Source of the DNA: Psychromonas antarctica
GTDB taxonomy: Bacteria > Pseudomonadota > Gammaproteobacteria > Enterobacterales > Psychromonadaceae
Assembly: GCF_022267535.1 (NCBI RefSeq)
Contig: NZ_JAHNZV010000020.1
Location: forward strand, 1-47,364
Reading direction: 5' to 3'
Length of the DNA stretch: 47,364 nucleotides
The notes under the pieces are model-generated. The model was not told the DNA's origin and did no database searches. It was given only the letters and a program-made list of their open reading frames with translations. A program made the position numbers and the translations under genes. Shown here piece after piece: positions 8,932 through 17,301 of the stretch; positions within the stretch are counted from its first letter, which is position 1, and each line of letters begins with the position of its first letter.

Positions 8932-9130
8932 TCTACTTCCCCTTTCGCTATGAATGAGTCTGTCGCTTTTAATGATAGAGAGCAGATTTTATCGCAAAAG
9001 GAAAAACACCCAACCCTTTTTTTATGTATGGCCGCTCTAAAAATATACTTTCCCTAAAAATAATCAGATAAAAGTAAACCGAACTAAAGATTGAAACGTA
9101 TGTATAGCTATATCTAAAATGGAGTAAATT

Positions 9131-9319
9131 ATGTTTTCAATATTTAAAAAAGATCCAATAAAAAACCTCAATAAACAACTATCTATTAAACTTGAGAAAG
9201 CAATGCAGGCACAAAGAAAAGGAGATATAATGGCTTATTCTCAGTTAAGTTTCGAAGCACAAGAAATAGATAAACAGATTGTAGAAATCGAAACACAAAA
9301 TGCTAAAGACGAATGCTGA
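9131..9319 (+). CDS. Small helical protein, DUF6435-like
   Basis: A 62-residue, highly charged and predicted all-helical protein starting MFSIFKKDPIKNLNKQ. It resembles the small DUF6435 family common in marine gammaproteobacteria, which has no known function; this is from memory of the family's appearance. There is no signal peptide or transmembrane helix. A GGAG sits about 6 nt before the ATG. It is flanked by genes on the opposite strand, so it is monocistronic. Confidence 0.7.
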   Translation: MFSIFKKDPIKNLNKQLSIKLEKAMQAQRKGDIMAYSQLSFEAQEIDKQIVEIETQNAKDEC

Positions 9320-9354
9320 CGAGTTCTATGTTAGGGCTTTGTAGTGAGTCATTT

Positions 9355-9687
9355 TTATTTAGTCAGCCCTCTTTGTTTACGAGCTTTTTCAATACTGCCA
9401 GCATTGTGTAAATTTTTATAACCCGCCTCTTTTAAGTCCGAGATGGCAAGATCTGATCGACCACCTGTATTATCATATAAATAAATTTCAGTATTTTTAT
9501 CTGGGTAAATTTTAGCAACTTCTTCGACAATATTCACATATGATATACGCACATCTCCGGCAATATTATCACTTTTATTTTCCATCAAAGTTCGCACATC
9601 AATCCAGACTGGAGCAGCAAAAGAGAATGAACTAAATAATGCAACAATAGCCAATGAAGCAACTAAAAAAAGTGCTTTAATTTTCAT
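9355..9687 (-). CDS. Periplasmic PspE-like rhodanese lacking the catalytic Cys
   Basis: A 110-aa protein with a signal peptide (about 1-24, cleavage after SFA or FAA) and a single rhodanese fold. WIDVR opens the domain as in E. coli PspE, and AGYKNLHNAGS matches its C-terminal part. The active-site loop, YCNAGRQS in PspE, here reads YDNTGGRS: the sulfur-carrying cysteine is replaced by Asp72 and no cysteine remains in the mature protein. Sulfurtransferase activity is therefore unlikely and a binding or structural role is inferred. AAGGAG-like bases precede the ATG. Confidence 0.88.
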   Translation of the reverse strand: MKIKALFLVASLAIVALFSSFSFAAPVWIDVRTLMENKSDNIAGDVRISYVNIVEEVAKIYPDKNTEIYLYDNTGGRSDLAISDLKEAGYKNLHNAGSIEKARKQRGLTK

Positions 9688-10104
9688 TATCTAACTCCTT
9701 CGATAGTAGAAATATTATATTTTATTGTTTGAATCGAAGCCTTGCATCGTATGAACAATGCAATATACACGCTTGGTTAACGGTAAGCGGTAATTGCTGG
9801 CAAGTCTAATATTACTCGACGTAACATATCAAAAATAATAACAACCGTGCCCACTGTAGCACCTGAAGTTATCACTTTCGCAATAGAGACGCCTGACTCG
9901 GATATTTTTGATAATAGAAAAGATGGAACAGTCCCCTTTTAAAGCGAGTCGATATGTGAATGAAAACATTAAGTGAGCACCAAAAAATTCGTTTGTTTGT
10001 GCGTTCAGGCCACAAAAAGATAGGCCAGTCAGGATGGCGTTAAATAATGAGGGATTGTACAAAACGAAATGATATAGGTGCCAGAAACTTCAACACTCGT
10101 GTTA
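9688..10104. other. Intergenic region with possible gene remnant and repeat
   Basis: On the minus strand an open frame at 9777-9938 encodes a hydrophobic segment ending SGATVGTVVIIFDMLRR and a stop. It has no usable start codon near its beginning and may be the C-terminal scrap of a membrane protein. The remainder contains repeat copy 1 (9979-10056). No complete gene was found. Confidence 0.35.
9979..10056 (+). repeat. Dispersed direct repeat, copy 1
   Basis: About 78 bp aligned by eye with 13221-13300. The shared blocks are ACCAAAAA, TTTGTGCGTTCAG(G/A)CCACAAAAA and AAATAATGAGGGATT. It is in the same orientation as copy 2, and the two bracket the cyclase/pepsin/avidin operon. Confidence 0.75.
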
Positions 10105-10887
10105 TTAGGAATTGTTTTTTTGTAATATTATGCTGTCCATTCTAGTTTGCATAAATCTATCTTGCGCCGATGTCGGTCTAGCCATCCATGAATATAGCGT
10201 TAAATGATCACTACCGTAATTTAACATTCCAGAAAGAGAGCATGTTTCTTTCGTTACTGAACAATATCCGCTTAGCGTAATGCCTTGAGCCATATTCACT
10301 TGCGCATTAACATCTATAAAACCGAGAAGCTGTACTTCACTTTCTCGCTTTGCCAAGGTCGCTTGAGTCAGACCCGATCTGGCGTCCACTTTACCAATCG
10401 TTAATATAATATCGTCGTATAAACTTACCCAGCGTCCTACTATCGGGTAAATATTTGTCGCTGACTGTAATTCGAATAAGCTTTTTTGGGAGAATAAACT
10501 ATGAGCTTGCTGAGCGTTTTTCACCTTAGTGAAAAGTAATTCATCAATATAATTACTTTTTTGATAACTCTCAAAGGGCACAGAAACAACGATAGAATTG
10601 GTTAATATCATCTGACCATCTAGCTGCAGTTGTCCGCACATTGAGCCAACCCAATGGCAACTGTCATCTTTTACTCCGCCTTCAATATTATTCCAGTAAA
10701 TAGCAATCGCAATGCTCTGTCCAAAATCTTTCGATGGATTGTCAACGGAGCAACTCCCTACTAATAAATACTCACCACTTGATCCTGTCTGTGAAACATA
10801 TGTCCCAAATATTGTCGAACCTTTAACCATAAGAGACATCTCTGAACCAAACGTATTAAGCCAAGTGCCAGTCAAATTATCATTCAT
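10105..10887 (-). CDS. Protein with two tandem avidin-like domains
   Basis: A 260-aa protein without a signal peptide. Domain 1 (about 3-122) follows the avidin/streptavidin pattern from strand 1 (LTGTWLNTFGSEM) through GTYVSQTGSSGEYLLVG, a YWNN strand, HWVG, DGQMILT and a final ELLFTKV strand. Equivalents of biotin-pocket residues N23, S27, Y43, S45, W79 and W92 are present (N11, S15, Y30, S32, W65, W79), but the W108 position is Met and D128 seems lost. Domain 2 (about 148-257) is more divergent and keeps candidates for W108 (W234) and D128 (D251). Known avidins are mostly single-domain and secreted. The last gene of a three-gene operon, 14 nt after the pepsin-like gene. Biotin binding is unproven; another ligand is possible. 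Confidence 0.75.
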   Translation of the reverse strand: MNDNLTGTWLNTFGSEMSLMVKGSTIFGTYVSQTGSSGEYLLVGSCSVDNPSKDFGQSIAIAIYWNNIEGGVKDDSCHWVGSMCGQLQLDGQMILTNSIVVSVPFESYQKSNYIDELLFTKVKNAQQAHSLFSQKSLFELQSATNIYPIVGRWVSLYDDIILTIGKVDARSGLTQATLAKRESEVQLLGFIDVNAQVNMAQGITLSGYCSVTKETCSLSGMLNYGSDHLTLYSWMARPTSAQDRFMQTRMDSIILQKNNS

Positions 10888-10901
10888 TGTAAGCCCTTAA
10901 T

Positions 10902-12074
10902 TTAGTTGCGAAAAATTAATGCGGGGGCAGTCTGTTTCGTCTTGATTATTTGAGGACCAGCATGCTTGTTAAAAATCCAAACACCTTTGGGTTGGATCTT
11001 ATTATCGGACACCACGTCATACTCATAGACGGTGTAAAGATGGTCCATAAGCACCGAGCCCACCAATAACATGTTGTCTGCACCAGAGAGTCCCTGAAAC
11101 TGAGATATAATCTGTCCTTTTTTCTCACCTGCTTCGATTTTGCATTTATAGATGTCACTGCTGATCTCAAGCTCGCCATATTCTAATCCAGCGTTATCCA
11201 ATAAAGTAATGGAAATAAGTGGGTTACCACGTGTGCTTAAATTATATATTTGGGATAACACCGATTCATCACCTTTAAACTGCGACGAGCCGCTATCCAG
11301 TGAAAAAAACATGTCCGCACTAATAATTTGACCATCAACACGGATTGACGCGCCTGAAGCACTCCACAAGTAACTTGCCTCTTGTTGATAACATGACCAA
11401 GGCAAAAATATATATTCTAGTGAAGATGCATAGGAATGATCCAGGCGGCCAAACCCGATGCGCCCGAGGGAGGTATCATCCGCGGATGGGGTCAAAAAAG
11501 TGATGTAGGGATTTCTCTCACTGACTAATCCCATCTGCACAAGCTGTAGAAAAAAGTGGAATTCAGTATCTTGCTCTGCATTAGACTGGTGTAATCGAAA
11601 AGGGGTCCCGCTAAGCACTGGCCTATTTAAGCTATTTTGACTACTAGGTAGGCCGATTCCTCCATCCCAGTCTAACGCTTCAAACTGCAAACCTGAGTAC
11701 TCTTTGGCTAAAAACAGATCCACGAATAGTGCATCACAATGTGTGCTTTGTGAAAGTGATAATTTATCTTTGCCTATTTCAACTTGCATCGTTCCCCATG
11801 GACCAAAACTAACAGATTGAGATTCGGTGCTTACCCTCTCTAATGTTGAAGATGCTGATAGGTTGAATTGTGCATCGGCGTAATGCATACAACTATTTTC
11901 TGCGCATAAACTAGAGGTCACCCAATTGAAGTTACTACCCGTATCAAAACACATTTTGAGTGTCTGAGCAGGCGTTCCTATACCTAGTTCACAGTACCAA
12001 GGAGTCGCACCATTGTTCTGGAACGGCCCTCTTTGAAGGAGGAGTTCAAAACCTGTACTGCTTAATGTCTTCAT
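10902..12074 (-). CDS. Pepsin-like aspartic protease (family A1), shewasin type
   Basis: A 390-aa bilobal aspartic protease, rare in bacteria. The N-lobe has YCELGIGTPAQTL then the first catalytic motif DTGS (D44) followed by W51. The C-lobe has the second motif DSGS (D260). WDGGIGLP (136-142) and LLVGSVLMDHLYTVYEYD match the pepsin segments around FDGILGL and the final beta hairpin. The flap reads SFGPWGTM, so pepsin Tyr75 is replaced by Phe90. There is no signal peptide or propeptide, as in the bacterial homologues called shewasins from Shewanella; cytoplasmic location is inferred. It lies 32 nt after the GGDEF gene and 14 nt before the avidin-like gene. Confidence 0.88.
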   Translation of the reverse strand: MKTLSSTGFELLLQRGPFQNNGATPWYCELGIGTPAQTLKMCFDTGSNFNWVTSSLCAENSCMHYADAQFNLSASSTLERVSTESQSVSFGPWGTMQVEIGKDKLSLSQSTHCDALFVDLFLAKEYSGLQFEALDWDGGIGLPSSQNSLNRPVLSGTPFRLHQSNAEQDTEFHFFLQLVQMGLVSERNPYITFLTPSADDTSLGRIGFGRLDHSYASSLEYIFLPWSCYQQEASYLWSASGASIRVDGQIISADMFFSLDSGSSQFKGDESVLSQIYNLSTRGNPLISITLLDNAGLEYGELEISSDIYKCKIEAGEKKGQIISQFQGLSGADNMLLVGSVLMDHLYTVYEYDVVSDNKIQPKGVWIFNKHAGPQIIKTKQTAPALIFRN

Positions 12075-12106
12075 TAAAATCGTTCCTCATCGTAAATGAT
12101 GATTGA

Positions 12107-13093
12107 TTAAGCAGATCCGGCATTGCCATCACTCTCTCTTTGGAATGTTCCCCATTTTTCTGAAAATTTATTTTTTTCAATTAGTTCGGAGTGGCAGCTG
12201 ACTTTATTTCTACCCGTTTTTTTAGAATGATACATTGCAGCATCTGCCCTCGCTAATATACTTTCACCATCACAATCTATTTCAGTGACGAAAGTAACAC
12301 CAATACTGACAGTGAGATATATGGCGTTATTATCTAATTCAAATTTATTTTTTTCTAGCTTAGATCTTAGTTTTTCGGCAATGATGACTGCATCATCTAG
12401 ACTGAGATCATTAAGAATAATTGCAAATTCTTCTCCACCAACTCGCCCAAAGTAGTCAGAAACTCTTAATTCTGAATTCAATGAATTTACCGCATGTTTA
12501 AGAGCCTCATCACCAAAATAATGGCCAAAAGAGTCATTGATGCGTTTAAATCGGTCTATATCTAACATCAGTAATGCAAATTTTCTACCACATAAATGGT
12601 GACTTTTTAAAGATTGGGAAAGTGCATTAGTGAATGAGCGACGATTAGCAATACCGGTCAATTCATCTATCTCAGATAACATCTTTAAACGTTGTTCCAA
12701 TAGATGCCGCTCGGTAATGTTTTTTGCCATCCAGACAACGGTTCGCTCACCATTTTCTATTAAAGGAAGCGGCTTAATGATCCCCTCAAACCATATTTCT
12801 TGAGGAGACGGCACATGTGCAGGTAAGTTAATCATGTCCTGTTTATCAAACTTATAGTGCACAACTTGCGTATTATTAAGTTCCAGAGCTGCCACTATGT
12901 ACGAGTGGAATTCCTTCGCCATATCAGGAGGCGCGACATCAAAAAGTGAACGGCCAATAAAAGGCTTGCAATCGAATCCCGTTGCATTGTGCTCTCCACC
13001 ATAGACATCGATATAGAGACCTGACTCAGAGAAAATAAACACATGCTCTGGTAAAGAGTCTAGTACGGTAAAATACCGATTTTTTAAGTCCAT
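12107..13093 (-). CDS. PAS-GGDEF diguanylate cyclase
   Basis: A 328-aa soluble protein with one PAS domain (about 5-128, ending in WMAKNITERH) and a GGDEF domain (about 135-300). The active site is GGEEF (219-223), a functional variant, and the RxxD inhibitory site (RVSD, 210-213) is intact, so it should make c-di-GMP with product inhibition. AGGTGG sits 4 nt before the ATG. It is the first gene of the operon with the pepsin-like and avidin-like genes, suggesting that a PAS-sensed signal and the two unusual proteins share expression. Its degenerate C-terminal tail has no known role. Confidence 0.92.
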   Translation of the reverse strand: MDLKNRYFTVLDSLPEHVFIFSESGLYIDVYGGEHNATGFDCKPFIGRSLFDVAPPDMAKEFHSYIVAALELNNTQVVHYKFDKQDMINLPAHVPSPQEIWFEGIIKPLPLIENGERTVVWMAKNITERHLLEQRLKMLSEIDELTGIANRRSFTNALSQSLKSHHLCGRKFALLMLDIDRFKRINDSFGHYFGDEALKHAVNSLNSELRVSDYFGRVGGEEFAIILNDLSLDDAVIIAEKLRSKLEKNKFELDNNAIYLTVSIGVTFVTEIDCDGESILARADAAMYHSKKTGRNKVSCHSELIEKNKFSEKWGTFQRESDGNAGSA

Positions 13094-13220
13094 CGAACCA
13101 CCTGACTATATGCATTACCATCAATGATATAAATAAGGAAAACAAATGAATCCATTCACAAAAGCCTAAAAATCCAAACTTTTAATCGAAATTATATATT
13201 AATAAAGATCCCAAATGATA

Positions 13221-13300
13221 ACCAAAAATGATCGAGTATTTGTGCGTTCAGACCACAAAAAAATGCAGTTTGTCGCGGTTGAAGCAAATAATGAGGGATT
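13221..13300 (+). repeat. Dispersed direct repeat, copy 2
   Basis: The counterpart of 9979-10056 (about 80 bp, similarity concentrated in three blocks), located 120 bp upstream of the GGDEF start. The two copies flank the operon in direct orientation, as would be left by recombination or by two insertions of one element. Confidence 0.75.
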
Positions 13301-13339
13301 TAATAGAAAGAAAAACATCAACATCGCTTCGCAAGATAC

Positions 13340-13380
13340 TAATTAACCTGAATTCGGGATAACAGAATTCAGGTTAATTA
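13340..13380. repeat. 15-bp perfect palindrome
   Basis: TAATTAACCTGAATT and its exact reverse complement flank an 11-nt loop (CGGGATAACAG). There is no T-tract on either side. It may be an operator, a folded remnant of a small mobile element, or a weak terminator-like structure upstream of the GGDEF operon. Confidence 0.7.
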
Positions 13381-13619
13381 TGTTGTTTTATTTTGTCAGC
13401 AAAAAATTAAAGAGTAAGCCATAACTGCTAGCTAACAAACAAGAATAGGTGTTGCAAAAATCACCAAAATTGCGGACAAAAAGCATGAGTGTTCAGATCT
13501 TTTGCACAGATCTTTTCTTTCCTCAGGATGCAAATTCACAAATCCAGAATAATGTGCTAATAACAGTCTCAAATGTAGATGCAATATATTGTTTGTATAG
13601 GCTTTCTATGCATAATGCC

Positions 13620-13900
13620 ATTTATATTAATATGCTTATGCACTTAACTCAGGTAAAAATGGGAAAAGATAAAAACACGTCAAAAAATTGCACCACAGAG
13701 TAAAATGAGGAAAACAGAGGAAAACATAATTACCTTATATTTTAGTATGTTAGTTTTTCCTCTGTGTCGCGCGCAGCGCCTCTGTTAATGAATGCGAACC
13801 GAAACGCAGTTTCGCAGTCGCATGAAGTGTGCGTGGTAGTGGTTTTAATCTTTTTACAAAAAATAACCTGAGTCATCTACATAAGCATGTATATTAATTA
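13620..13900. mobile_element. MITE-like element, about 280 bp
   Basis: Imperfect terminal inverted repeats of about 40 bp lie at 13620-13660 and 13861-13900. They share ATGCTTATG and ACTCAGGT with matching spacing. The interior contains complementary tracts (GAGGAAAAC near 13710, TTTTTCCTCTGTG near 13754). No transposase is encoded. The right half recurs at 6272-6387. A non-autonomous element is inferred; no target-site duplication was identified. Confidence 0.5.
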
Positions 13901-14036
13901 GCACACAATTATTTACCTACCATATGCAGCACCTTGCTTAGATTTATTTTAAATCAATAGCTTGTGGATATTCCTGAAATATTGACTCGTGTACTGGCGA
14001 TAAATAACAAAAATTATATATACACAAGGAAAAACA

Positions 14037-15518
14037 ATGAATAAAAGTAACTTGTTAAAAAATAGTGTTGTCATTGCGTCACTTGCGCTAGGCGGCATCT
14101 CCGCTGCCAGCGCGGTCATAAACGGCATTAACACCCCAGCGGCGCAATATAAAGATTATCTCGTACAGGTCTTTACTGATGCTACTTGTGGGGGGTTATT
14201 GATTAACGGCACGCATGTTATTACTGCGCGGCACTGTTTGGATGATGACTTCTACAATCAAGATGTTGTCCCCAGCTCTGTTGGTGATATCGAGATTTTT
14301 CAGTCTCTTTGGCACCAAAATCCTGAATATTTAGGGCATCATTTTAAAGCCTTGGACGATCAGATGACCGTTAGTTTTGCGGATTACCACCTGTACTTCC
14401 CGCTAATGGATGCGCGCCGCAATAAATTTAATTATGTAGGTGATCGCACCCGCCTGCCTCGGTGGGAGCAGGATTTAAACAGTAACGGTATTATTGATGA
14501 TGATGAAATGGTTTGGGAAACTGATTACGCAACGGTTGTTCAAGTGTTTCTTGACGACCCAGAATCCAGTTTTTCATACACTGGTCAAGGGGAGTTCTTT
14601 ACAGATATCGTAATTGTTAAATTAAACAATGGGGAGCGCGTGTTAGCGCAGTCCTCTGCCCTCGCACTTTCAGAAGTGATTGATTGGGATCAAGATAAAT
14701 TACCCCTTGAAGTCGTCCCCGATGGACAAGAGTTAGTTTTTAATGGGTGGGGAATAAGCGTAGAGGGGGAAACACAAGTATCTGATCGCCTAAAGCAAAT
14801 GACCATCAAGTACGACACGGCTGTTGCAGATGTATTTAAAATAGACGCGTTGGGCTGGTTGATTATTAACGAATCCCGATTATTTACTATTAACAAAAGC
14901 GAGGCAGGCAACTACATTGAGGGCGGCGATAGTGGTTCCCCTCTCGCATACGGGCATAGATCAATCGGCTTGGTTTCACGAGGCAACTCTTCTAGTGGCG
15001 ATTTCGCTTCATTCACTGGCTTATTGCCGTTTATGGCCTCCAAAATCAATGCGCTGAATACTGTGACGTACTTGAAAGATGAAAGTGGCGCTGCTTATTG
15101 GGAGTTTCCCGTTCAAAACTTAACGATGAATGAAACGGCGTTAACTATGCGCGTTGATGGTGATGAAAGCGAGTTTTCACTTGATGCGTCCGATTGTGGC
15201 AGTGTGCTTAAATTAGGGGAATATTGTGTGGTTAAAATCCAAGCAAACACCACCGATAGTACATTAACCCGCGCTGATTTGTATATCGAGTATGGTGCGG
15301 GTTTACAACGAGTTATCCCGATGACGCTAAATGCTACGCCAGAAGCGGTAAACCCGTATTGGTTTGATATAGAGAACGGCAACTACCCGTATGAGCCAGA
15401 GGTGAGTGAGCCTGATGTAACGGGGCCTGATACTGCGGGAAGTGGCGGTGGTGGTAGTATGGGGATTTGGAGCGTAGTATTGTTGATGCTGGCGGGTGTA
15501 AAAAGATTAACAGTATAA
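14037..15518 (+). CDS. Secreted trypsin-like serine protease with GlyGly-CTERM
   Basis: A 493-aa exported protease. The signal peptide spans about 1-26 (cleavage after SAASA), directly exposing VINGINTP, the trypsin-type mature N-terminus. The triad is H66 (TARHCLDD), D190 (TDIVIVKL) and S299 (EGGDSGSP); C51-C67 is the usual His-loop disulfide. An insert at 146-157 (DLNSNGIIDDDE) has the shape of a calcium-binding EF loop. After the protease domain comes a beta-rich segment with C387/C397, a Pro/Glu linker and a GlyGly-CTERM tail (SGGGGSMGIWSVVLLMLAG plus basic end). In this family that tail directs type II secretion with rhombosortase processing and surface attachment. It resembles the Vibrio VesB/VesC group. 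Monocistronic. Confidence 0.93.
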   Translation: MNKSNLLKNSVVIASLALGGISAASAVINGINTPAAQYKDYLVQVFTDATCGGLLINGTHVITARHCLDDDFYNQDVVPSSVGDIEIFQSLWHQNPEYLGHHFKALDDQMTVSFADYHLYFPLMDARRNKFNYVGDRTRLPRWEQDLNSNGIIDDDEMVWETDYATVVQVFLDDPESSFSYTGQGEFFTDIVIVKLNNGERVLAQSSALALSEVIDWDQDKLPLEVVPDGQELVFNGWGISVEGETQVSDRLKQMTIKYDTAVADVFKIDALGWLIINESRLFTINKSEAGNYIEGGDSGSPLAYGHRSIGLVSRGNSSSGDFASFTGLLPFMASKINALNTVTYLKDESGAAYWEFPVQNLTMNETALTMRVDGDESEFSLDASDCGSVLKLGEYCVVKIQANTTDSTLTRADLYIEYGAGLQRVIPMTLNATPEAVNPYWFDIENGNYPYEPEVSEPDVTGPDTAGSGGGGSMGIWSVVLLMLAGVKRLTV

Positions 15519-15600: not shown

Positions 15601-17301
15601 TTACTGTCTAAATGTTACCCGCTTACCTGCGCCATCTTTCACCCAAAAAGAGCTTTGCCCCCTTGTTGAATACCGGGCATATGCAGCAACTGAGCCGTTA
15701 AATTCTTTATATCCTGCTTGACAACCTCCCGTGTTGTTTGGGGCGTGGCAGTGCCACTCACACGTCAAATATTTCTCTACCATGGCGCCTGTTTTTAATA
15801 ACGGAAATTTTGTCCTGTCGCTCACTGCACAGGCCATTGTTCCAGTGCTAACTTGCTCACTCGCTTCTTGTCCATTCACGGTTGAAGTGAACTCATACAT
15901 ACTCCAATTGCCCGCTGGCTTGTAAAAAGCCCCCGAACTGCCCACAGTCACCGTTGCAGAAGTTGGTCCGGCAGGCTCCGCTGCTTTCTTCTCTAACACC
16001 GCAATGCGGAGGCTATGCTTATTAACTTCGGTTTGTGTATCATTGGCCTTCGCGTAAACCTTGTCGGTATATTGACGCGCTGACTCGATGTCTTTTTCAT
16101 TAGTGGAAATTTTACTCGCGTTATTACCAATGTTTATTTCACTTACATTGATACGCGTTAAATTGGTCGATATATCTTTTTTGTTGGTTGAAATATCGGT
16201 TTTATTAGCGGCAATGTCTATTTTATTGACGTCAATATCTGTTTTGTTTTGGGCTATTTTTGCAATGTTTGCATTAATCTTTGCAGTATTACCGTTCACT
16301 GCTGTTTGTAAGCTAGCAATTTTAACCGCATTAGCATACGTATCGGCACGCACCACGCTAATAGCGTCTAACGCATTGGCGTGGTTCGTGGCGATGATTT
16401 TGCTTAACTCAATGTCTTTTTGCTTGAGTAAATCAATAGACGATGAATTTGCCTTACCTTGTGCTGTATTGCTGCTGATTAGTGCTTTCTGTACACCCAG
16501 CTCTTTACTGTGCGCACTCAATGTTGCAGTGTGAGTACTTAAGGTCGCAGAGTGCGTCGCAAGTAGGTCAGTATTCGCTTTTGTCGCAAGCTCGGTCGCA
16601 TCTAAACGATTTTCATGCAATGCAATCGCGGTCGCATTGGCATTTGTCTTGTTGGTATTTGTAAGGATATTATTTTTATTGGTGGTCATGCCCGCCGTAT
16701 TAGATGCGATGTTGCCGGTATTCCCTGCCACAACTGTTTTCAATTTAGCGGCTTCGACTGCGTTATCATAAGCCGATGCGCGAACAACATTAACCGAATC
16801 CAATAGGTTTGCATTCACCGTTTCTACGCGCTTACTGATATCAATATCTTTTAATTTCAATAATTCAATGGCTTTTGAATTATCTTTACCAACAACCGCA
16901 TTGCCATTAATAAGGCTCTTTTGTGCCGTTAATTCTGTACTGTGAGTATTTAACGTTGTGTTGTGCGCGTCTAAAGTGGTGGCTTGTGTTGTAAGTTGAT
17001 CTTTATTTCCTTTTGTTGCCAACTCTGTAGCATCGAGTCTATTTTCATTTACAGCAATTGCGGCGGCATTGGTCGCTGACGCGGTGTTTAGCGTATCTAG
17101 ATTTGCGCCTGCCGTTGTTTGGATCACGCCACCGAGAACCGAGTTTGCGGTTACGTTTTTAGCGTAAACGTTCTGAATATCTTTGATATCAAAGTTATTC
17201 ATCTCGATGCTAGTTTGCATCTTGTTTAGACCGCTTCCGGTTGTATCTTTGACTTCTAAACGATAATTATTTGCAGACTTAACCCCGGTTACATTACCAG
17301 T
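15601..17301 (-). pseudogene. 5'-truncated fibre/stalk protein with coiled-coil repeats
   Basis: From the first ATG (17220) the frame codes for 539 residues, but coding-like sequence (YRITGNVTGVKSA...) continues 27 codons upstream to a stop without any start codon, so the 5' part appears lost. From that ATG: a 144-residue tandem duplication (about 52-170 and 196-314, both opening NENRLDATELATK or HENRLDATELATK), a 7-residue repeat of the NKTDIxx type (about 325-373) typical of trimeric coiled coils with Asn core layers, and a C-terminal domain with four cysteines (C464, C487, C491, C500). It resembles phage tail-fibre or trimeric-adhesin ends. It could still be translated from ATG 17220, but no signal peptide or anchor is present. 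Confidence 0.65.

Follow-up and report, generated by a model that had tools for sequence, protein, structure and literature searches.

A pepsin-like protease and a putative tandem avidin encoded behind a diguanylate cyclase in Psychromonas antarctica: a possible ligand-capturing protease coupled to c-di-GMP

The window analysed here, that is the whole stretch of 47,364 nucleotides (nt) of Psychromonas antarctica contig NZ_JAHNZV010000020.1, carries on its reverse (-) strand three consecutive genes, encoding a PAS_4-GGDEF diguanylate cyclase of 328 amino acids (aa) (12107..13093), a family A1 pepsin-like protease of 390 aa (10902..12074) and a protein of 260 aa (10105..10887) that appears to be a tandem avidin with two predicted 8-stranded barrels. 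We favour, with a probability of about 0.42, the reading that a cytoplasmic protease and a ligand-capturing partner, specific for biotin or another cyclic ureide or amide, are coupled to cyclic diguanylate (c-di-GMP) in marine Gammaproteobacteria. Neither bacterial avidins nor bacterial pepsins have a settled physiological role; the conserved row described here joins the two with a known output chemistry, c-di-GMP, a cyclic-amide gene row in another genus hints at the ligand, and the roles become testable in culturable marine bacteria.

Open reading frame (ORF) coordinates agree with the sequence-only reading of this DNA, which had proposed a same-strand row of three genes, with gaps of 32 nt between cyclase and pepsin and 14 nt between pepsin and avidin, and because of this close spacing the genes are presumably co-transcribed. 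Of the two terminator-like matches on the operon strand, one falls within the pepsin gene and the other some 240 nt beyond the avidin gene, with none between the three genes; matches of this kind number three in total, against 2.8 expected. That reading had also taken the proteins to be cytoplasmic and devoid of signal peptides, which is supported by their low hydropathy (top 19-residue Kyte-Doolittle means of 0.95-1.15): no segment hydrophobic enough for a signal peptide or a transmembrane helix was found in any of the three, a dedicated signal-peptide program not having been used. The A1 gene and the avidin gene each occur once in the draft genome.

The cyclase is recognised by Pfam through its GGDEF domain (PF00990, 151.6 bits, 2e-44, above the gathering score) and through PAS_4 (24.0 bits against a cut-off of 23.1, 4.7e-5). 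Its active site is intact and reads GGEEF, with an RxxD motif (RVSD) five residues upstream, and by hydropathy no transmembrane segment was seen. The identity of the 390-aa protein as a pepsin-like A1 protease is likewise confirmed, since the Asp family (PF00026) matches residues 27-353, covering both lobes, with 71.7 bits (9.4e-20, cut-off 19.9), and both catalytic motifs, FDTGS (Asp44) and LDSGS (Asp260), are present together with a flap reading FGPWG; neither a prosegment nor a signal peptide is evident. Across the 27 aligned pepsins from the loci described below, both Asp-Thr/Ser-Gly motifs are kept without exception, a Ser follows the second of them in all but one (DSGS in the window), and the flap reads FG(P/S)WG in 27/27, with Phe in the position of the Tyr that is typical of pepsin and other A1 proteases.

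In the 260-aa protein, Pfam detects the avidin family (PF01382) in the first half only (residues 4-90, 33.3 bits, 7.1e-8, cut-off 24); the best sequence match in the PDB is streptavidin (E 7e-6), and the NCBIfam streptavidin model scores 19.9 against a cut-off of 300. An AlphaFold2 model made from a 4-row alignment, with a mean predicted local distance difference test (pLDDT) of 74.9 and 36 residues below 50, including 100-114 and 129-144, contains two 8-stranded barrels, with strands spanning residues 7-121 and 151-257. The four top PDB matches of the model in Foldseek were chains of an engineered single-chain dimeric streptavidin (6s50 and 6s4q; E 8e-8 to 3e-7, template modelling score 0.66-0.72, root-mean-square deviation 5.6-6.4 over 276-279 columns), and a profile-profile alignment of the two halves in HHalign has a probability of 95.7% (E 8.6e-9). 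Because model, structural matches and half-to-half alignment agree, the protein is most probably a natural tandem avidin, with barrel 1 at residues 1-124 (10516..10887, minus strand) and a divergent but homologous barrel 2 at residues 147-258 (10114..10449, minus strand); the predicted structure is thus avidin-like, as had been proposed from the sequence. Such a natural two-barrel single-chain avidin would, if true, be of interest to builders of these proteins.

Barrel 1 keeps N11, S15, Y30, S32, W65 and W79, which, mapped by eye, correspond to streptavidin N23, S27, Y43, S45, W79 and W92, six of what we take, in list and numbering, to be the ten biotin contacts of streptavidin. All six are kept in 24/24 avidins (24 rows out of 26 aligned, those of L052, in two ORF pieces, and L097, at a contig end, being dropped; counts over the 26 rows agree except for gaps). 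The kept polar positions presumably hold the ureido ring of biotin, and the lost ones much of the remainder. The avidin gene of genome G186 (L052:6749-7862), which lies in two ORF pieces, is apparently broken, while the pepsin, kinase and cyclase ORFs of this locus are long and open.

Genome contigs scanned with the pepsin yielded four relatives of 57-63% identity. All three genes occur in the same order as in the window in Motilimonas, Enterovibrio and Vibrio, and a metagenome-assembled genome labelled Aliivibrio (L004) has cyclase and pepsin, with no credible trace of the avidin by tblastn. Among 394 sampled genomes of the order, 43 were found to have A1 proteins, seven avidins and six both (hypergeometric 8e-6, phylogeny ignored). 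The avidin gene lies directly behind the A1 gene on the same strand in five of the seven (the window, G057, G150, G175 and G186; G057 is the Motilimonas genome of locus L003 and was scored once), the exceptions being G120, with an avidin alone, and G303, with avidin and A1 apart; the 20 other members of the genus listed in this sample have neither. The pair proposed from the sequence therefore recurs across genera. A tandem-avidin profile gave five matches among 398 genomes of the phylum, namely the window, one pair (G541) and fusions of 643 aa (G695), 718 aa (G610) and 752 aa (G429), and two among 369 genomes of the class, the window and a 709-aa fusion (G1056). The pepsin profile matched in 16 of 48 genomes of the family of G541, strongly in 15, and in three of 12 genomes of the family of G175.

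Among the 27 pepsin loci whose neighbourhoods were read, four (L048, L049, L050 and L109) encode pepsin and avidin as one fused protein, and in every split locus with an avidin its gene immediately follows the pepsin gene. Pepsin and avidin distances are correlated (r 0.894, n=24, 0/9999 permutations). Two of the fusions, L050:4800-7058 and L109:4104-6233, carry a hydrophobic stretch close to the N terminus (19-residue Kyte-Doolittle mean 1.9), beginning at residue 20 and residue 14, respectively, and may, to judge from sequence, be secreted, unlike the window proteins.

The 27 loci (the window, L003-L006, L047-L053 and L095-L109) were not selected by cyclase. In the first arrangement the order is PAS-GGDEF cyclase, pepsin and avidin, as in the window, L003, L005, L006 and L051, and likewise, without the avidin, in L004. 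In the second arrangement pepsin and avidin are followed by a hybrid kinase (PAS, HisKA, HATPase, one or two REC, and Hpt) and a REC-GGDEF cyclase, domains being assigned by Pfam on L047, L052 and L053 and by blastp to L047 in the other loci. The kinase lies directly downstream in 16 loci, counting L105, where it is split over two ORFs, and the cyclase comes next in 14; in L100 an ORF judged transposase-like by eye follows the kinase, and in L108 no cyclase follows it. Thus, a cyclase adjoins the pair in 20 of the 22 judgeable split-pair loci, six of the first arrangement and 14 of the second (20 of 27 if the four fusions and L097, at a contig end, are counted), when the 45 GGDEF stretches of the window's own genome lead one to expect about 5% within two genes (assuming about 3500 genes). 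GGEEF is present in all 20 cyclases, including the 6/6 of the first arrangement, where RxxD is kept in 3/6. The claim that a PAS-GGDEF cyclase heads the unit was borne out, and the cyclase link recurs in two architectures.

The idea that one PAS sensor is common to both architectures was not supported: compared over small alignments, the two sets of PAS domains gave no sign of being specifically related (probability 1.2%). In a pepsin tree of 35 rows the six pepsins of the first arrangement form one clade (100/99), which groups with three loci of the second arrangement at 88/91, below the 95/80 mark and with a midpoint root only. The lack of detected PAS kinship and the placement of the one-component form inside the kinase form in this tree suggest the exchange of a two-component sensor for a one-component one, with the cyclase retained.

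A clue to the ligand comes from another genus, g124, which we guess to be Pseudomonas from the fusions named in the accessible part of PMC8033661. Tandem avidins were found in 15 of 348 g124 genomes sampled, fused to pepsin in 11, L048 and L049 among them, and without pepsin in four. In 13 of the 15 loci the avidin, or the pepsin-avidin fusion, lies directly behind a same-strand row encoding HyuA, HyuB, in some cases aminopeptidase P, a protein not assigned to any family, whose start resembles a signal peptide when judged by eye, an Asp/Glu/hydantoin racemase and a major facilitator superfamily (MFS) carrier; L123 and L126 have no hydantoinase row. Families were named on the representatives L049 and L124 (one or two for each) and traced in the other loci by tblastn, and among the named families of NCBIfam, HyuA and HyuB come nearest to caprolactamase subunits, with scores far under the cut-off. 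Aminopeptidase P is present in all four row loci without pepsin (L124, L130, L132 and L133) and in one (G695) of the nine with pepsin (L048/L136, L049, L125, L127-L129, L131, L134 and L135), as if one peptidase replaced the other, a pattern that may be a single event because the four pepsin-less loci are close relatives. On a Novosphingobium plasmid, where a tandem avidin stands without a pepsin, a racemase of this type (47%) lies some 5 kb from it. Hydantoins, lactams and biotin have a cyclic amide or ureide in common, and such a ligand class would fit both the kept pocket residues and the hydantoinase row. Near L051, L104 and L053 there are genes of urate/OHCU, carbamoylputrescine- or agmatine-type and arginase families; as they differ each time and were noticed after the idea, they were not counted as support for a ureide.

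According to the favoured reading, the first avidin barrel would bind biotin or another cyclic ureide or amide, free or on a peptide or protein, and the tandem avidin and the pepsin would form one complex, as the natural fusions, where they are covalently joined, suggest; the ligand would then recruit or gate cytoplasmic proteolysis. Marine Gammaproteobacteria would have made this complex part of a c-di-GMP circuit, either through a PAS-GGDEF cyclase, which is the situation in the window, or through a PAS hybrid kinase that presumably phosphorylates the REC-GGDEF cyclase. Since the cyclase linkage repeats, we infer that pair and cyclase belong to one pathway, in whichever direction, the pair acting as input to the cyclase or c-di-GMP controlling the pair; complex formation, ligand class and cytoplasmic site are likewise inferred. 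The sequence-only reading had further suggested that a signal controls the protease, and had named cleavage of the avidin-like protein or binding of a biotinylated substrate as possible roles. A bolder form, which we consider doubtful, would make the tandem avidin a cytoplasmic receptor for biotin or a cyclic ureide that presents the ligand, or a biotinylated protein, to the pepsin and sets c-di-GMP through the linked cyclase, the sensor having been exchanged between one- and two-component types and the cyclase kept.

Several observations weigh against the favoured reading. The equivalents of streptavidin T90, W108, W120 and D128 are changed in 24/24 avidins, in a register set by hand from one pairwise alignment in which D128 is possibly misplaced by two residues (Asp115 is nearby), and because of these changes the tandem avidin may bind biotin weakly or not at all. 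The structure model of the pepsin (pLDDT 35) was not used, and the correlated distances of pepsin and avidin indicate co-inheritance, not contact. One genus (g136) contributes 15 of the 27 loci, and the six one-component cyclases all appear orthologous to one another; independent events are therefore few, two architectures rather than twenty. No cyclase adjoins the four fusions, L109 having a hybrid-kinase-like gene (31% to the L047 kinase) on the other strand, and no such cyclase was found within about 3.7 kb in 13 further g124 loci, the wider L123-L135 regions not having been scanned for GGDEF; the cyclase is therefore not obligatory. Finally, the hydantoinase link belongs to another genus than the window: in 13 loci tested outside g124 (a set without the window, L004, L095-L103, L106 and L107), no relatives of HyuA, HyuB or the MFS carrier were found, and the racemase was found in one (L054).

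The g124 row could also be taken at face value, as a route by which biotinylated proteins, biotinyl peptides or cyclic amides are scavenged or broken down and in which the pepsin cuts, the avidin holds, the enzymes continue and the cyclase signals the nutrient. The upstream HyuA, HyuB, racemase and MFS genes, the distribution of aminopeptidase P and the racemase near the Novosphingobium avidin all speak for this, but the absence of the row from the loci tested outside g124 and the distance of HyuA and HyuB from their nearest named kin tell against it, and we consider it rather unlikely. Similar odds seem appropriate for a store of defence proteins, both kept in the cytoplasm and set free when a protist or other grazer digests the cell; the avidin would then deprive the grazer of biotin, the acid protease would digest, and the cyclase or kinase would do no more than tune expression or biofilm life. 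This idea, hinted at by the authors of the survey in PMC8033661 as far as the accessible text goes, accords with the sporadic distribution of the genes, with the pH optimum of 3.5-4 and the mainly cytosolic location given for shewasin D in the accessible part of PMC4814920, and with fungal cytoplasmic defence proteins toxic to nematodes, for which the accessible part of PMC6238071 contains the words tamavidin and biotin-binding. However, a stored poison would need neither the cyclase in the row nor the catabolic row of g124, the four changed contacts argue against efficient withholding of biotin, and PADLOC gave no match for the three proteins.

It is less probable still that the avidin double barrel is an inhibitor or chaperone devoted to the pepsin within the cytoplasm. 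Beta-barrel inhibitors are known for some bacterial metalloproteases, the avidin gene always sits directly after the pepsin gene in split loci, and something may have to restrain a pepsin that has no evident prosegment or signal peptide. Inhibition by the barrel exterior would nevertheless not need six invariant pocket contacts, and avidins occur without pepsin in the stretch searched in the four g124 genomes mentioned and at the Novosphingobium plasmid locus.

The sequence-only reading had considered the combination undescribed. This holds for the cyclase linkage, which was not found in print, but not for pepsin and avidin themselves, since avidin–aspartic peptidase fusions were published in 2021 (PMC8033661); in the accessible text these belong to the 'Extended' and beta6 clades of avidins, contain the same two domains and have the pepsin first in 5/6 of those named. 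The window avidin resembles the 'Extended' clade in its length of 260 aa and its second domain at about 147-258, and differs in being encoded by a separate gene. For the C-terminal extensions of about 150 residues that PMC8033661 describes in Enterovibrio calviensis, Aliagarivorans and Marinomonas, no domain is recognised in the part accessible to us, whereas model and profile point to a second avidin barrel in the window. The same source judges the extended avidins potent biotin binders, and our count of pocket positions is more guarded. Its main text uses none of the words diguanylate, kinase, operon and adjacent. Searches, which left most subscription papers outside, found in print no report joining avidin, diguanylate cyclase and aspartic protease, none joining the avidin family, c-di-GMP and a bacterial protease, none with any three of streptavidin-like, pepsin-like, operon and GGDEF, and none with hydantoinase and avidin in Pseudomonas. 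Three findings thus had no match in print in these searches: the association of the split pair with a cyclase, in either architecture, the recognition of a second avidin barrel in the extension, and the link to hydantoinase genes. The pair itself is already known as a fusion.

Proteolysis controlled by c-di-GMP is known from LapD-LapG, in which the cysteine protease LapG is located in the periplasm and retained by a membrane receptor. The window shares with it a protease tied to c-di-GMP, and differs in having a soluble-looking aspartic protease and a cyclase, a receptor being sought only among the neighbours. Engineered single-chain dimeric streptavidin has, like the window avidin, the barrel fold and two barrels per chain, whereas the latter would be a natural tandem with a divergent barrel 2 and, unlike streptavidin itself, with four of ten biotin contacts changed.

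The proposed comparison with shewasins stands for family A1 and not for the shewasin group, because flap, clade and neighbours differ. Shewasins A and D are, in the accessible part of PMC4814920, bacterial A1 proteases without signal peptide or prosegment, as is the window pepsin. In shewasin-type loci of the same order, however, the flap Tyr is kept in 24/24, in contrast to Phe in the 27 window-type pepsins, and seven shewasin-type proteins form a separate clade from window-type pepsins in the 35-row tree; the label shewasin-type denotes similarity to L012, with no direct comparison with shewasin sequences, and the A1 loci of the order examined were the best 30 from the 43 A1-positive genomes. 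The residue after the second Asp-Thr/Ser-Gly, Ala in marine homologs according to the accessible part of PMC4814920 and Ser in all but one of the window-type pepsins, is a weak criterion, since Ala occurs in 11/24 shewasin-type loci.

Unlike the window pepsin, shewasin-type genes often lie beside genes for a GNAT acetyltransferase and a tetrapyrrole methylase (TP-methylase), as in L010, L012-L017, L020, L029 and L034 (TP-methylase in 10/24 and GNAT in 12/24 loci, each with about 1-1.5 kb of flank only). The TP-methylase of L012, the one tested, is closely related to the split-borosin alpha-N-methyltransferase SonM (7ltc, E 4e-73), and shewasin-type proteases may, from this neighbourhood, mature borosin peptides. 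Shewasin and tetrapyrrole methylase were not found together in the openly accessible literature, and pepsin does not occur in the accessible main text of two borosin papers (PMC8429565 and PMC11395268).

The cassette is flanked by a direct repeat with 80-82% identity in its two blocks, one copy on the avidin side (9982..10069, plus strand) and the other upstream of the cyclase start (13225..13313, plus strand). No further copies were found elsewhere in the draft genome at E<=1e-3, and the repeat is possibly an insertion footprint or a regulatory site. A mobile element or defence island was considered and rejected, with no phage matches for pepsin or avidin, no plasmid matches for pepsin, one for avidin and no PADLOC match for the cyclase, the pepsin or the avidin. 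An empty site was sought in 24 genomes of the genus with the cyclase-side flank, which gave only short, repeat-like matches outside its own genome, and no known RNA families were detected in 9000-14200 at E<=1.

Further upstream of the cyclase, an element of about 260-280 bp at 13620-13900, with 23-nt inverted arms (83%), resembles a miniature inverted-repeat transposable element and has at least 11 further copies in the same genome (90-98% identity). Next to it, a trypsin-like protein (14037-15518, PF00089, 5e-12) has a Gly-rich, hydrophobic and basic C-terminal tail that we take to resemble a GlyGly-CTERM sorting signal. The region 15601-17220 encodes a 539-aa protein with LDATELATK-type repeats, for which Pfam and NCBIfam returned no family above cut-off and which is possibly a coiled-coil fibre.

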